Shown one piece after another: positions 6,873 to 33,014 of a stretch of 34,552 nt of DNA. Source of the stretch: a virus; IMG/VR virus record IMGVR_UViG_3300033004_000006, positions 1 to 34,552 of that record, one strand, 5' to 3'. The notes beneath the pieces were generated by a model. That model did not search any database, was not told the DNA's origin, and saw only the letters and a program-made list of their open reading frames with translations. The first letter of the stretch is position 1, and each line of letters opens with the position of its first letter. The position numbers and the translations under genes were made by a program.

Positions 6873-6949
6873 TGGAGGGACCGGCGGGAATCGAACCCGC
6901 GCCGTAGGCGTGAAGAGCCTTATGTGCTTGCCAATTACACCACGATCCC
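6873..6949 (-). tRNA. tRNA with encoded CCA, probably Glu (TTC); odd anticodon arm
   Basis: Acceptor stem GGGATCG pairs with CGGTCCC (one T-G). The D stem is GTGT/GCAC with A14, GG and A21 in the loop. The T arm is GCGGG-TTCGATT-CCCGC, and an encoded CCA ends the gene. The anticodon arm is irregular: AGGC/GCCT closes the 7-base loop TCTTCAC, giving TTC with A37, but position 33 is C instead of the near-universal T, and the stem needs a bulged A to extend. The alternative register, CTT (Lys), gives poorer pairing. It starts 9 bases after the stop of the gene at 6959-7525 and shares its terminator, so it is probably cut from that mRNA. Confidence 0.8.
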
Positions 6950-17669: not shown

Positions 17670-18236
17670 ATGAAGCACGACACATTGTATGGCAGAGGGT
17701 CTAACCCACTGAAAGCTGCCGAGGATTTGAACCAAATATATATCGCTTGGACAGATAATCCTCTGGGAGTAATCATCAAACAACACGATGATCCAATTGT
17801 TTTTGATGAAAGTCGTGGAGAATTTGTCTGCCGACGTCATTTGAGTTACGAGCCGATGAAACCGAAAACTGATTATCTTACCTTCGGTTGGCGTGCCAAG
17901 AAAGGCCCTCAAGAATCCAACAAGAGCGGCTTCCGAGCCGTGGGCCATCGAGTGCTACTGTCCCCAGATGAGGTAGAGAAGAAGAGTGCGGGCGGCCTCG
18001 TCCTCATAGAGAAAACGATTGTGGCTGAAGAGAACAAGGCTGTCATTTGTACCGTTCTCGAAATCGGCCATGATTGCTGGAGTGACAAGTCCACTGACTA
18101 TTGCCAGGTTGGTGATCGCGTTCTCGTCGGAATGTACTGCGGCAAGTTCCATGTCAGTCCTGTCGATGGGAAGAAATACAGGTTCGTCATGGACACTGAT
18201 ATTGTCTCTCCACTCCCCCCTGAGACTAAAGAATGA
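17670..18236 (+). CDS. GroES-like co-chaperonin with a novel N-terminal domain
   Basis: 188 residues, GGAGGATTGA before the ATG. Residues about 88-182 are a Cpn10 fold: FRAVGHRVLLSPDEVEKKSAGGLVL carries the mobile-loop signature (EVEKKSAGGLVL, against EVETKSAGGIVL in host GroES), so it should bind GroEL; VGDRVLVGMYCGKF is the second conserved strand pair. The first 87 residues (FDESRGEFVCRRHLSYEPMKPKTDYL) match nothing I know. Phage co-chaperonins such as T4 gp31 enlarge the GroEL cage for the capsid protein. The position ahead of scaffold and capsid fits that job. Confidence 0.87.
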   Translation: MKHDTLYGRGSNPLKAAEDLNQIYIAWTDNPLGVIIKQHDDPIVFDESRGEFVCRRHLSYEPMKPKTDYLTFGWRAKKGPQESNKSGFRAVGHRVLLSPDEVEKKSAGGLVLIEKTIVAEENKAVICTVLEIGHDCWSDKSTDYCQVGDRVLVGMYCGKFHVSPVDGKKYRFVMDTDIVSPLPPETKE

Positions 18237-28605: not shown

Positions 28606-31023
28606 ATGCCCGACTTCACATTTGACCTGCCGGACGGTCGTTCTGGGACTGTTACAGCTCCGGAAGGAACCACGCCGGAGCAGGCATATGGCTATTTGCA
28701 GCAGCAGATGAAGATGCAGTCTCAGTCTCCCCAAGAAAAGCCTGTGCCCGCAACGGCCCCTGCCAAACCCGCAACGGCCTCCGATCGTGCCAAAGACGCC
28801 ATTGCAGGCCTTCGCCAAGCCAACCCCTTGAACCGTCTCGATGCCAATGACAAACCAGTGCCTCCCCCCACTATTTCTAGTGCTGCCAAGTCTATTGCAA
28901 GTAGCACAGCATTCGGCGGCATTGCAGGGGCATTGTCGCCTGAAATTGTCACAGGCCTTGGCATGGCAGCGAGCTTTCTTCCCGTGGTGGGGGAGGCTGT
29001 CGGACCAGCGCTTGTCGAAACAGGTGCTGCCATGCGAGGGGCACGCCTTGCCGAAGCCGGAATCGGCGCCGCCAGCGGTCTCACCTCCGAAGCGGCTGGT
29101 CAGGCTACAGAAGCTCTTGGAGGCTCGCGAACGCAGGCAGACATTGCCCGTGTGGCTGGAGGCATGCTCACCCCAAGTGCAGGCACAGTGGCTGGATTCG
29201 TGGGGAAGCCTGTAAAGCTGGCGTGGGACTTCGCACAGAAGGCGTTGGGAGCATCACCGGATATCGCAAAGGCCGTGATGACCGCCAGGGAGAACCTGGC
29301 GAAACTGGCTGAAGCCGGGCAACCCCAAACGGCCATGCATGCGATGCTTCAGAAGGGTGTGGAGGCTGACAGGCAGGCAGCGGATAAGGCTGCGGATGCC
29401 GTGTTGGCCGATGCACATCAACGGGCGGCGGCTATTGCCCGGTCGGATGCCGGGGCCGCCACGCGGATCATTGACGATGCCCGGACCCATGCCGAGTCCA
29501 TCCGTGCCGACGCCGCCAAACGGGCCGCAGCCTTAGACAAAGCTTCTAATGGTAAGTTGGCAACGGCCAATCGTGTGTTGGCGCAGGCGGCCCCGGAACT
29601 GGCAAAAGTCGGCCAAGTCTCGGAATTGTCTGACATTGGCAACACCTTGCGCCAAGCCGCCACGGCAAAGCAAGGAGCGGAGATTCAGGCCCGAAATGAA
29701 GCTTACCAAGCCACAGTCGCTGAGCGTGATGCTGCAGTCAAAGCAAAGGAAACGGCAGGTCAGGACATTGGCCAGACTGCTGCGATGGCTAGCCTCAAGA
29801 AAGAGCTGACAGGAAAACTAGTTGGCGAGGGTGGATTTGCCAAGACAACCGACGCGGGGGTGAGGCGTGTGTATCAGCAAGTCTACGATGCGGTGAACCC
29901 CCAAAAGCAAAAGCTGTCTTTTGAGGCTGTGGATCAGGTGCGCAGGCGGCTTGGGGATGTGATTGCGGGGAATCCGACTCCCGAGGGGTATGAGGCGATT
30001 GGGAAGCAGGCTGCTCAGAAGATGTACGCACAGATTTCGAAAGCCCAAGAGGAGTTTGCTGGCCCTGTGCAGCGCACATTGCAATCAGAGTATGCCGAGG
30101 CGTCTGGTGGGCTCACCAAATTCGGTTCCAAGGCCGGAAAGAAGCTCACAGCTGTTGATCGGATCGACCCCGAGAGGTTTGCAGGCGATCCCAAGGCATT
30201 GCCCAAGGCATTCTTTAACAGTCAACAGTCAATTCGAGATGCCAAAGAGTTGACAGGCAACCCTCAATTGGTCGAGAGGCAGGCTGCAGACTACACTGCC
30301 CGGTCGATGCAGGGGCAGTCTGCGGCACAAGCCAAGAAGTGGGTCCGCGACAACCAAGACTGGATGAGGGAGGTGCCTGGGCTGACGGCTAGGGCCAATG
30401 CCTATGCCAACAAGCTGGAGCAAATCGAGCGTGTGAACAACAAACTCACCGCGAGAGCCACCACCAAGGCCAAAGAAGCCGAGCAGACTCGGATCGCGGG
30501 CACTGCGGCGGCGGAGGCTGAGCGTCAGGCTGGCATCCAGCGGGCGTCGAAGGCAGCGGAGGGTGCTGCTGCGACACAACAACGACTAGCTGACGAAGGT
30601 TCCAAGGCCGCTATCGCGGCGAGGGAAGAGAAGTTTGCACCGGCAAAGGGCCTGGAAACCATCCTCAAGGGTGGGGAGAGCCCTGAGGCCGTTCGGAGTC
30701 TTCTGTTGAATGGCAAGCCAGAGCAAACTAGGCTGGCAGCACGGTATCTGGCAGGGCAACCCGGAGGCAAGGAGGTGCTGGAACAGAGCGTGCGGCAGAC
30801 AATGCGCAATATGACGGAGGGGAATTTGCGGCAGCAGTGGACGGAGCGGATTCGGCCGATGCTTGCGGAGGGGAAGATGATCCCGCCGGAGAGACTGAAG
30901 GCACTGGAGAGTGACGTTAACCGTCTCTTGGCCGCATACAAGGGGAAAGACAAGCTCTCCCTCATCCAGCGTCATATTGCGGCGGCGATTGGCACGGCTG
31001 CGGGGCCGAATACCAATTATTGA
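28606..31023 (+). CDS. Internal virion / ejection protein, largest (805 residues)
   Basis: It starts one base after the previous stop. It opens with TFDLPDGRSGTVTAPEGTTPEQAYGY, a short domain common at the N-terminus of phage ejection proteins. A hydrophobic region (about 90-150, LGMAASFLPVVGEAVGPAL) could span a membrane. From about 250 it is an almost continuous Ala/Arg/Lys/Glu coiled coil. Position corresponds to T7 gp16 or P22 gp16. No transglycosylase catalytic block is recognisable. Repeat copy 11 starts at the base after the stop codon. Confidence 0.73.
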   Translation: MPDFTFDLPDGRSGTVTAPEGTTPEQAYGYLQQQMKMQSQSPQEKPVPATAPAKPATASDRAKDAIAGLRQANPLNRLDANDKPVPPPTISSAAKSIASSTAFGGIAGALSPEIVTGLGMAASFLPVVGEAVGPALVETGAAMRGARLAEAGIGAASGLTSEAAGQATEALGGSRTQADIARVAGGMLTPSAGTVAGFVGKPVKLAWDFAQKALGASPDIAKAVMTARENLAKLAEAGQPQTAMHAMLQKGVEADRQAADKAADAVLADAHQRAAAIARSDAGAATRIIDDARTHAESIRADAAKRAAALDKASNGKLATANRVLAQAAPELAKVGQVSELSDIGNTLRQAATAKQGAEIQARNEAYQATVAERDAAVKAKETAGQDIGQTAAMASLKKELTGKLVGEGGFAKTTDAGVRRVYQQVYDAVNPQKQKLSFEAVDQVRRRLGDVIAGNPTPEGYEAIGKQAAQKMYAQISKAQEEFAGPVQRTLQSEYAEASGGLTKFGSKAGKKLTAVDRIDPERFAGDPKALPKAFFNSQQSIRDAKELTGNPQLVERQAADYTARSMQGQSAAQAKKWVRDNQDWMREVPGLTARANAYANKLEQIERVNNKLTARATTKAKEAEQTRIAGTAAAEAERQAGIQRASKAAEGAAATQQRLADEGSKAAIAAREEKFAPAKGLETILKGGESPEAVRSLLLNGKPEQTRLAARYLAGQPGGKEVLEQSVRQTMRNMTEGNLRQQWTERIRPMLAEGKMIPPERLKALESDVNRLLAAYKGKDKLSLIQRHIAAAIGTAAGPNTNY

Positions 31024-31049
31024 TAGGAATTAATGTAGATTAATTCCTA
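31024..31049. repeat. Palindromic repeat copy 11
   Basis: Perfect TAGGAATTAAT, GTAG, ATTAATTCCTA, beginning at the base after the TGA of the 805-residue gene and ending 15 bases before the structured-RNA region. Confidence 0.92.
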
Positions 31050-31063
31050 CAAATATGTCTATA

Positions 31064-31349
31064 GGCGGGGGCTATGAGGGCAATAGGCAAAATCTATTAG
31101 CCATCCCGGCCCCCGCCCCCTACAATGTAATCGTTGCAAGTGTGAATCGGCCTACTACCGATGGGGCCTAGCTAGCCCCGCATCACACTGTTTAGAGGAA
31201 CACGCAACACGTGCTCGGCTGCAAGAGCACAGCCCACCACCAAGGCTAGACACCCGACTGAAAGGTCGGGAGGGCTTAAAAGAAGCGCCGAGCGTACCAA
31301 GGCTAGGATTATTCCTGGCCATTTGTGCTGTCTGATCGAAAGACTAGCC
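31064..31349 (+). ncRNA. Candidate structured RNA, unknown class
   Basis: No frame fits, yet consecutive stable stems fill the region. Stem 1 is GGCGGGGGC (31064) with GCCCCCGCC (31109), holding an inner stem 31079-31086/31094-31102. Next is a three-way junction: GTGTGA (31140) with TCACAC (31183), enclosing ATCGG-7-CCGAT and GGGGC-7-GCCCC. Then GTGCTC (31211) with GAGCAC (31225); CCCGAC (31253) with GTCGGG (31265); GGCTAGGA (31301) with TCCTGGCC (31313); and GTCT (31330) with AGAC (31341). ACCAAGGCTAG occurs twice (31239, 31296), and CTAGCC at 31344 could pair with either. A remnant group I intron, a regulatory leader for the genes after it, or a new RNA are all possible. The strand is inferred from transcription direction. 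Confidence 0.5.
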
Positions 31350-31364
31350 ATATATAAGGAATTG

Positions 31365-31376
31365 TTTGTAGGAATA
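31365..31376. repeat. Palindromic repeat copy 12, one arm
   Basis: TTTGTAGGAATA, with the AATTG flank of copies 4 and 13; the second arm is missing. It lies directly before the degenerate HNH gene. Confidence 0.55.
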
Positions 31377-31388
31377 ATGGAGAGTTCA

Positions 31389-31631
31389 ATGGAAAAGTCC
31401 AATAGGCAACGTGTCAAAGATAGCCTGACGCTGAAGGTTCCCGGTGGGTGCTGGATATGGAAAGGTCCGCGACATCCCCGATCCGGTGCCCCATCATTTT
31501 GTTGGGACGGCAAATGGACGCTTGTTAACCGTGCTGCTGTCTGGAAGTTAAAGCCCGGTGAGAGGGTTGTCCTAAGCTGTCAAAATCCCCTCTGCATCAA
31601 TCCCGCACACAGAAAAGTAGAAAAAATTTAA
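31389..31631 (+). CDS. Degenerate HNH_3-like protein
   Basis: 80 residues from the ATG after GGAGAGTTCA; earlier in-frame ATGs reach back to 31323. GGCWIWKG (19-26) and CQNPLCINPAH (64-74) match the two HNH endonucleases in the window. However, the first catalytic His of the core (VLH) is Ser63 here, and nothing follows the last His except six residues. The C-terminal DNA-binding helices are missing. It is either a decaying homing endonuclease or a protein that kept only the fold. The structured RNA immediately upstream makes an intron remnant worth testing. Confidence 0.65.
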   Translation: MEKSNRQRVKDSLTLKVPGGCWIWKGPRHPRSGAPSFCWDGKWTLVNRAAVWKLKPGERVVLSCQNPLCINPAHRKVEKI

Positions 31632-31691
31632 TCGGGTACAATAACGAGAAATTCTCGGGTAGGTTCACGCCCCATTCACAGGTTCACGCGA

Positions 31692-33014
31692 ATGAACATC
31701 CTCCTTATAGATGCAACTGCATCATTCGTTGATTTCGCCCTCCGCGCGGAAGCCCAAGGTCATACTGTCCGAACCTTCATGGGACCGGACAAACATGGCG
31801 ACCGATACCCTGTCGGTGACGGACTTATCACAAAAGTTCCTGACTTTCGACCACATATGAAGTGGGCTGATCTTATACTGGCTAGTGACAATTGCAAGTA
31901 TATGGTCGAACTGGAAGGCTACCGTGCCCGAGGTTTCCCCCTCTTCACTTCTAATGTTGAGGTCACTTCATGGGAGCTTGACCGGGCCAAAGGCCAGCAA
32001 GTCATGGAAGAATGCGGTATTGAGTGTCTGCCTACAATCGAATTTAAGAATTATCGCGATGCTCATGCGCATCAAATGGCAAATCGCGATAAACGTTATG
32101 TCTCAAAACCTTCCGCTGATGTGGACAAGGCTTTGTCTTATGTGAGTAAAGGCTTTCAGGACATGTGTTTCATGCTGGATTATTGGGAAAAGAACCAAAA
32201 GAAAAAAGTCCCTTTCATCTTTCAAGAGTTCTGTCCGGGTATTGAAGTTGCTGTGGGTGGTTGGATGGGGCGTGACGGATTTCTTTCCCACTTTCTAGAA
32301 AACTTCGAGTTTAAGAAGTTGATGCCAGGGGAAGTCGGGGTCAATACGGGCGAAATGGGAACTGTGATGAAGTATGTCACGATTGAAGAATCCCGTTTGG
32401 CTCAAGAACTCTTGCTTCCCCTAGAATCGCGACTCATCAGAGAAGGCTACACAGGCTATATTGACGTGGCTGTTATGGTTGGTACGGAGGGGGAACGTAA
32501 GGGAAAGTTGAATCCTCTCGAATTCACTTCTCGGCATGGATGGCCTCTTTTTCAGATTCAGCAAGCTCTCCATACGAATATTGCAGATTGGATGCTTGAT
32601 GCTCTCAATGGTCGTGACACTTTCACGCCAAGTCGTGACGTCGCCCTTGGCATTGTCTGTGCTATGCCCGACTTTCCGTACAGTAAACTGACGCGGAAAG
32701 AGGTTACGGGCTTCCCTATCTGGGGCGTAAATGCGTCCAATCGCTATAATTTCCACCCCTGCGAACTGATGCTTGGGGAATCTTATGGCGAATCCGGCGA
32801 GAAAGAGCCGATGATGGTGTCTGCCGGGGATTACTTAGCTGTCATTACAGGAACTGGTAAATCTATCAGCAAAGCTAAAGATGATGCCTATGGTAGACTA
32901 AAGGAATTCGAAATCCCGAATTCGCCTATTTTCCGCACCGACATTGGCAATCGTCTTGAGAAGCAATTGCCGAAGCTTCAGGCCTTGGGCTATGCCGAAT
33001 CCTGGGAGTGGTAG
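31692..33014 (+). CDS. PurD-like ATP-grasp ligase
   Basis: 440 residues, the usual length of phosphoribosylamine-glycine ligase. The N-terminal pre-ATP domain is MNILLIDATASFVDFALRA. The ATP-grasp region contains RYVSKPSADV, VPFIFQEFCPGIEVAVGGW, VNTGEMGTVMKYV (PurD: TGGMG) and GKLNPLEFTSRHGWPLFQIQ (PurD: vlEfNvRfGDPEtq). The metal-binding Asn of the last motif is Thr here, and the glycine-rich AGKGV loop is not visible. The fold therefore seems kept while the substrate may differ. No other purine gene is nearby; it sits among virion genes. It probably joins an acid to an amine using ATP. AGGTTCACGC occurs twice upstream, the second serving as a weak ribosome binding site. Confidence 0.82.
   Translation: MNILLIDATASFVDFALRAEAQGHTVRTFMGPDKHGDRYPVGDGLITKVPDFRPHMKWADLILASDNCKYMVELEGYRARGFPLFTSNVEVTSWELDRAKGQQVMEECGIECLPTIEFKNYRDAHAHQMANRDKRYVSKPSADVDKALSYVSKGFQDMCFMLDYWEKNQKKKVPFIFQEFCPGIEVAVGGWMGRDGFLSHFLENFEFKKLMPGEVGVNTGEMGTVMKYVTIEESRLAQELLLPLESRLIREGYTGYIDVAVMVGTEGERKGKLNPLEFTSRHGWPLFQIQQALHTNIADWMLDALNGRDTFTPSRDVALGIVCAMPDFPYSKLTRKEVTGFPIWGVNASNRYNFHPCELMLGESYGESGEKEPMMVSAGDYLAVITGTGKSISKAKDDAYGRLKEFEIPNSPIFRTDIGNRLEKQLPKLQALGYAESWEW

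Follow-up and report, generated by a model that had tools for sequence, protein, structure and literature searches.

We identified a region in an uncultivated phage that very probably contains a stand-alone gene for a structured non-coding RNA, as judged from its conservation, its predicted fold and the promoter- and terminator-like elements around it. The further proposal that this RNA is a trans-acting regulator is an indirect one with an even chance of being right, and we hold the reading as a whole, a stand-alone phage RNA gene whose product probably regulates in trans, with slightly better than even confidence. The window (the whole stretch of DNA that was analysed, 34,552 bases) is a whole IMG/VR virus record classed as linear, in which we found genes for a terminase, a portal, a head closure protein, a Dda-like helicase and a protein with a weak major-head match. 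The RNA is located at the end of the run of head and structural genes, between an 805-aa ORF (28606-31023) and an ATP-grasp-like gene (31692-33014). The 805-aa protein, whose gene was named a virion gene in the preliminary description, matched no PHROG or Pfam family, and the GARS_C match of the ATP-grasp protein falls below the Pfam cut-off. The head-gene region of the window also encodes a protein (17670-18233) with a GroES-like PHROG match (phrog_3188, E 4.1e-11), and the left arm carries a single tRNA-Glu (ttc) gene (6873-6949, minus strand).

Related loci were gathered with the ATP-grasp protein (38 loci), the 805-aa protein (7) and an alignment of ATP-grasp proteins (the best 80 of 210); loci overlap between these searches, and the counts below are not of independent phages. 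By blastn, the RNA was seen in near copies of the window and, as a match that was both short and weak, in L051. A shared core, roughly AGAGTGRAGYCCA ... GGRCTWWAAAGA, was found by reading homologous gaps and was extended to further loci by regex, pattern and profile searches. Six lineages resulted, namely the window with L009; L051; L011 (also L012, L058, L059, L073 and L074); L014 (with L022 and L054); L063; and L070. All are uncultivated phages with a relative of the 805-aa gene upstream and the ATP-grasp gene downstream (6/6 lineages), and one more locus, L096, starts with the apparent 3' end of a further member. The RNA was carried by 10 of 76 ATP-grasp upstream regions; when only distinct regions of at least 900 nt were counted, 8 of 53 had it and 45 did not, so it is not essential to this phage group.

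In a search with a profile of the RNA (model R1), it was carried by 8 of 89 loci (792 kb), with one additional weak match at E 1.3. Among 33 more whole records, mostly chosen as lacking the RNA, three matches reached E<=1, two of which are the copies already recorded from L054 and L063; the remaining one (E 0.14) was taken as chance. Pattern scans of viral sequences added L054 and pointed to L022, another scan refound L063 and L070 (as L160 and L161), and one further scan returned nothing new. Six other viral stretches were rejected as chance (five at 17.1-24.3 bits; L164 with no match listed), as were 15 stretches from bacterial genomes, which scored 13.9-29.3 bits against R1 compared with 51-80 for members, in a scan that reaches only close core matches. 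Of these bacterial stretches, 13 lie in an open frame of at least 145 codons, the exceptions being L143 (46 codons) and L148 (none), in neither of which a P1 arm was seen by eye. No match was obtained by blastn against INPHARED. A search of the whole window with Rfam 15 at gathering score returned the tRNA only, and relaxing the threshold to E 10 over 30950-31700 gave two matches, at E 1.3 and E 2.9, both falling well short of the gathering score. By these searches, the structured RNA matches no family in Rfam 15, whether 6S RNA, C4, GOLLD, ROOL or other.

The predicted RNA consists of a 5' domain of branched hairpins and a long arm, in which helix P1 is followed by an internal loop and by P2 beside P3 (Table 1). 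The preliminary description had proposed Rfam and then an alignment of related phages as a check for compensatory changes in its stems, with uncompensated changes counting against a conserved RNA; Rfam gave no match, and the comparison of relatives spoke for the RNA, with compensatory changes in the helices of the arm, in P1, P3 and one P2 pair. As MAFFT alignments of longer stretches misplaced the P1 arms, we registered these arms manually from the individual folds before counting, which biases the result towards pairing, and the permutation counts for P1, P2 and P3 exclude L009 as a near copy of the window. With P1a in this register, 42/42 cells were paired across the six lineages, 7/7 positions had two-sided changes, and 0/719 permutations were as good (inner register; the outer register gave 6/7 positions and 1/719). 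The bases of P1a mostly differ among lineages, and pairing is retained throughout. P1b, counted in four lineages, had 16/16 cells paired and compensatory changes at 4/4 positions (1/23 permutations as good), and P3, also in a hand register, had 24/24 and 3/4 (1/719), with 85.7% of its cells paired on the model alignment. For P2, 30/30 cells were paired and 1/5 positions was compensatory (35/719 permutations as good). In the model-fitted alignment (A7), which covers P2 and P3, 93.7% of cells were paired and the covariation score was 0.434, relative to 0.175 when shuffled (0/500 shuffles as high), dropping to 0.03-0.16 when the registers were slid. The same alignment was unremarkable in its number of pairs with two-sided changes (70/500 shuffles) and of pair types (422/500). 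From these counts, the arm is held by compensatory changes in P1a, P1b, P3 and one pair of P2.

Table 1. Positions of the predicted parts of the RNA gene and of other conserved or repeated stretches, in window coordinates unless a locus is named.
Feature	Position	Strand	Basis or remark
Sigma70-like promoter	31097..31126	+	-35 TTAGCC at 31097 or TAGCCA at 31098; -10 TACAAT 31121-31126
Predicted ncRNA transcript, about 195 nt	31133..31327	+	Placement of promoter and terminator-like hairpin, and fold; both ends inferred
5' domain, branched hairpins	31133..31208	+	Fold
5' domain, closing stem	31133-31137/31204-31208	+	Fold
5' domain, inner stem	31140-31145/31183-31188	+	Fold
Two hairpins with 7-base loops inside the inner stem	31146-31162, 31163-31179	+	Second loop CTAGCTA
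P1a 5' arm GCTCGGC	31213..31219	+	Pairing and compensatory change in six lineages
Internal loop, 5' side AGAGCAC (other lineages AGAGTGR)	31224..31230	+	AGAG invariant, alignment A4
P2 5' arm AGYCC	31231..31235	+	Paired in 100% of cells; one pair shows a C-G/U-A exchange, other four invariant
P3 hairpin	31253..31270 (31253-31258 with 31265-31270)	+	Pairing and compensatory change
P2 3' arm GGRCT	31272..31276	+	Pairs with P2 5' arm
Internal loop, 3' side TAAAAGAA	31277..31284	+	Alignment A4
P1a 3' arm GCCGAGC	31287..31293	+	Pairs with P1a 5' arm
Terminator-like hairpin (31301-31320), then ATTTGTG	31301..31327	+	Terminator site search
Second conserved family	L075:3669-3800, L077:3651-3782, L081:3666-3797, L093:3589-3720		Same gap, apparently non-coding
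Palindrome copies	3918, 6750, 8438, 10301, 12056, 18424, 21648, 25933, 31025, 33260		Those placed lie between genes

P1a and P3 formed in the single folds of 7/7 core sequences and P2 in 5/7 (it was absent from the minimum-energy folds of L009 and L014), and P1b was clear in L011, L014, L063 and L070. In the internal loop between P1 and P2, AGAG faces a conserved AAA run (alignment A4). The region had been described as densely folded, and this was borne out: the minimum free energy of 31020-31400 was -146.5 kcal/mol, relative to -109.8 for shuffled sequences (z -6.0, 0/100 shuffles as low), and the predicted transcript by itself reached z -5.1 (0/200). Scores of single relatives were modest (L014 -1.35, L011 -2.0, L051 -2.1). 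The junction with two 7-base loops was also recovered as described. The preliminary description had taken the whole of 31064-31349 as RNA; a structured RNA does lie inside it, but the first ~70 bases of this region are upstream of the predicted start.

A promoter-like site was found 82-109 nt 5' of the core AGAG in 7/7 sequences. Compared with other intervals of the same loci, its placement had p values of 0.001-0.035 each (Fisher combined 2.9e-8 over six lineages, with L009 excluded as a near copy of the window), values which are optimistic, the interval of 79-125 nt having been set after the sites were seen and the lineages sharing ancestry. The promoter of the window itself matches weakly (p 0.027). 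In number, such sites were not above chance in the region (6, relative to 5.8 in shuffles), nor were terminator-like sites taken alone (13, relative to 10.4). By reading, a hairpin was present at the 3' end in 7/7 sequences, followed by TTTTT in L011 and L014, TTTT in L070 and a short T-run in the window, L009 and L063; the hairpin at the 3' end of the L051 RNA has no T-run. The predicted transcripts of the seven sequences are 195-223 nt long. From this placement, a promoter for the host sigma70 polymerase and a terminator-like hairpin look like the frame of a separate RNA gene. In this model, host sigma70 RNA polymerase would start near 31133, produce the RNA with its 5' hairpin domain and long arm, and stop after the 31301-31320 hairpin.

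Sequences around the promoter raise the question of whether the DNA itself, as operators or inverted repeats, was conserved, with RNA folding as a side effect. In the window and in L063 the promoter is overlapped by an inverted repeat (of 9 and 11 bp, respectively), and there are dispersed palindromes in the vicinity. However, P1, P2 and P3 are located downstream of the promoter and have two-sided changes across lineages, and the loops conserved between the helices are not palindromic, which makes this explanation very improbable. The GC-rich 9-base stem that had been counted among the RNA stems is indeed present (31064-31072 with 31109-31117), but it lies upstream of the predicted start, overlaps the promoter around the -35 element and is common only to the window and L009; no 9-bp inverted repeat was found at the promoter of L051, L011, L014 or L070, and the 11-bp one of L063 is unrelated. 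Because the stem is upstream of the predicted start and absent from the other lineages, an operator or the end of the upstream operon is likelier than a part of the RNA.

Several other repeats were observed in these genomes. The window has ten copies of the palindrome AGGAATTAAT-N4-ATTAATTCCT (<=4 mismatches), many of them flanked by TTTGT/ACAAA, as well as half copies, and by eye the gaps of related phages contain other palindromes of similar build, as if each matched a DNA-binding protein of its own. The palindrome AATAG-GCAAAAT-CTATT (31082-31098) touches the -35 element, and ATAG...CTAT repeats were seen by eye just 5' of the -35 element in L051 and L013, with CTAG...CTAT in L018; repeats of this type are a possible shared operator.

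The order of a promoter, a structured arm, a terminator-like hairpin and, downstream on the same strand, the ATP-grasp gene (6/6 lineages) would also be expected of a cis-acting leader, a riboswitch or attenuator whose arm senses a signal and whose 31301-31320 hairpin gates the HNH and ATP-grasp genes. Such a leader could use a local hairpin that would form at the expense of P1 in the window, L009 and L051, where 7, 18 and 1 of 500 shuffles, respectively, were as low. That hairpin is not conserved, however: the corresponding counts were 245 in L011, 259 in L014, 47 in L063 and 354 in L070, and we rejected it as a conserved switch, as it beats most shuffles only in the first three and is marginal in L063. 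A different switch had been proposed from the twice-repeated ACCAAGGCTAG and a later CTAGCC. These letters are present, but only the window and L009 showed the alternative pairing, and even between these two the repeat is not kept, 3/11 bases of its first copy differing by eye in the near-identical L009. Moreover, 45 of the 53 distinct ATP-grasp upstream regions do without the RNA, and the spacing between the core and the ATP-grasp gene ranges from 246 to 1191 nt over a stretch that differs between lineages, being occupied in the window by the HNH ORF and in L070 by small ORFs without a known family, and lacking any ORF of at least 50 aa in L051 and L063. A cis-acting leader is thus unlikely. 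That both flanking genes are constant and the spacing and next ORF variable fits an independent unit, and the variable spacing argues for action in trans.

The ORF that follows the RNA in the window matches HNH families (PHROGs) and no Pfam family; it is listed with 102 aa from a TTG at 31323, and would have 84 aa if read from the in-frame ATG seen by eye at 31377. It had been noted as a common partner of self-splicing introns, though with no clear group I core in view, and the RNA could in principle be the remnant of a group I intron or of a HEARO/OMEGA guide RNA tied to this gene. Group I introns and HEARO/OMEGA RNAs occur with HNH genes, the latter being recognised by an Rfam match and a downstream IscB/IsrB gene, and the likeness here, a structured RNA next to an HNH ORF, is confined to the window and its near twin. 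Against it, Rfam gave no model match at E 10, to a group I catalytic core or to HEARO/OMEGA, and the RNA interrupts no gene, being located between an ORF that ends at 31023 and one that starts at 31692, with the same arrangement in the other lineages. Among the searched loci, only near copies of the window carry a relative of this HNH ORF; the gaps of L037 and L050, both without this RNA, contain HNH ORFs too, and the ORFs tested in RNA-bearing gaps of other lineages (three in L070, one in L051) had no PHROG match. We consider the intron or guide-RNA explanation scarcely credible.

The preliminary description held that no coding frame explains the region. On the plus strand, no ORF of at least 20 aa begins inside the window transcript except at the TTG of the HNH ORF at its end, wherever the ORF stops; a 38-aa ORF from 31055 ends inside it, and minus-strand ORFs of 55 and 113 aa overlap it. 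The other lineages have short, unrelated frames across the RNA, with longer ones in L070 (46 aa, and 236 aa from a GTG in a GC-rich stretch), and no ORF common to the lineages was seen by eye among those that stop within 60 bases of the transcript end. Together with the compensatory changes, these observations suggest that the RNA is non-coding, with a conserved secondary structure.

As a regulatory or factor-binding RNA, the product would act in trans, with its near-invariant, purine-rich internal loop as the contact surface for a host factor or target. A second contact surface may be the CTGATC that lies in a predicted 7-base apical loop of L051, L014 and L063; L011 has the same letters, partly paired in its minimum-energy fold, and L070 lacks them. 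No clear antisense target was found on the plus strand of the window, where complementarity was below that of shuffles. On the minus strand, one stretch in the 805-aa gene was found, with two 12-mers and one 13-mer (means of 0.38 and 0.10 and maxima of 2 and 2 in 50 mononucleotide shuffles). We also compared 147 ORFs (at least 70 aa) of three larger RNA-bearing records with eight other records, and no ORF occurred in every one of the three while being limited to three or fewer of the eight, a comparison of low power on incomplete records. The lack of a clear target in the window and of a co-occurring gene points weakly to a host partner.

The self-complementary letters in the 5' hairpins of 5/6 lineages (TAGCTA in the window, TGATCA in L051, GATC in L011, L014 and L063), together with the position at the end of the head and structural genes, could instead suggest a virion structural or assembly RNA, similar to a packaging RNA or homo-oligomeric, with palindromic apical loops as the joints between its copies. 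However, a palindrome of only 4 bases is no rarity in a short loop, L070 has no palindromic loop and the letters of L011 are partly paired. The RNA was also not found in most of the relatives searched, and the phi29 packaging system is of another kind. A virion RNA is therefore quite improbable, and we return to the trans-acting RNA in comparing it with known systems.

Antisense phage RNAs are represented by STnc6030 of BTP1 and sas of P22, each antisense to a phage gene (PMC12197685). The likeness to the RNA described here is that of a small phage-encoded RNA with a proposed regulatory role; in contrast, our RNA has no clear antisense partner in the window and its conservation is structural. 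GOLLD and ROOL resemble it in being phage-encoded, with a conserved complex structure and a function that is not known, but many GOLLD RNAs are longer than 800 nt, and GOLLD and ROOL often have tRNA islands close by (PMC12286853), unlike the 195-223 nt RNA located between the 805-aa and ATP-grasp genes, with no Rfam match. A limited literature search of titles and the starts of abstracts, not by sequence, found no published account of this RNA.

The gap itself may be of wider use to these phages. Four relatives without the RNA (L075, L077, L081 and L126) have a near-consensus promoter, TTGACA-17-TATAAT, in the same gap with no obvious gene behind it; others have weak promoter sites only. A second conserved stretch of ~130 nt, GCTAGGGTCGATT ... 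CAGTCTAGTTTT, follows sigma70-like promoters in four other lineages (L075, L077, L081 and L093). This second family was found in 11 loci (several on the same contigs), none of which bears the first family, and its RNAalifold consensus is weak (-4.3 kcal/mol). Another possible promoter-led unit is a TTGAYGGGAGGTG-like stretch in L010, L037 and L067, with a similar GGGAGGTG in L080. We offer the speculation, which will probably not hold, that the gap is a slot in which phages keep a host-type promoter and swap unrelated non-coding RNAs behind it, the first family being a new class whose invariant internal loop would bind a host factor and whose palindromic loops might pair it into a dimer. The present work adds a structured non-coding RNA family that has no match in Rfam 15 and for which there is now a defined candidate transcript, a structure open to testing and a constant place in the genome. 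Should the slot idea be true, this one gap would reveal further phage non-coding RNAs in uncultivated viruses, and the roles of accessory genes that consist only of RNA would become askable.
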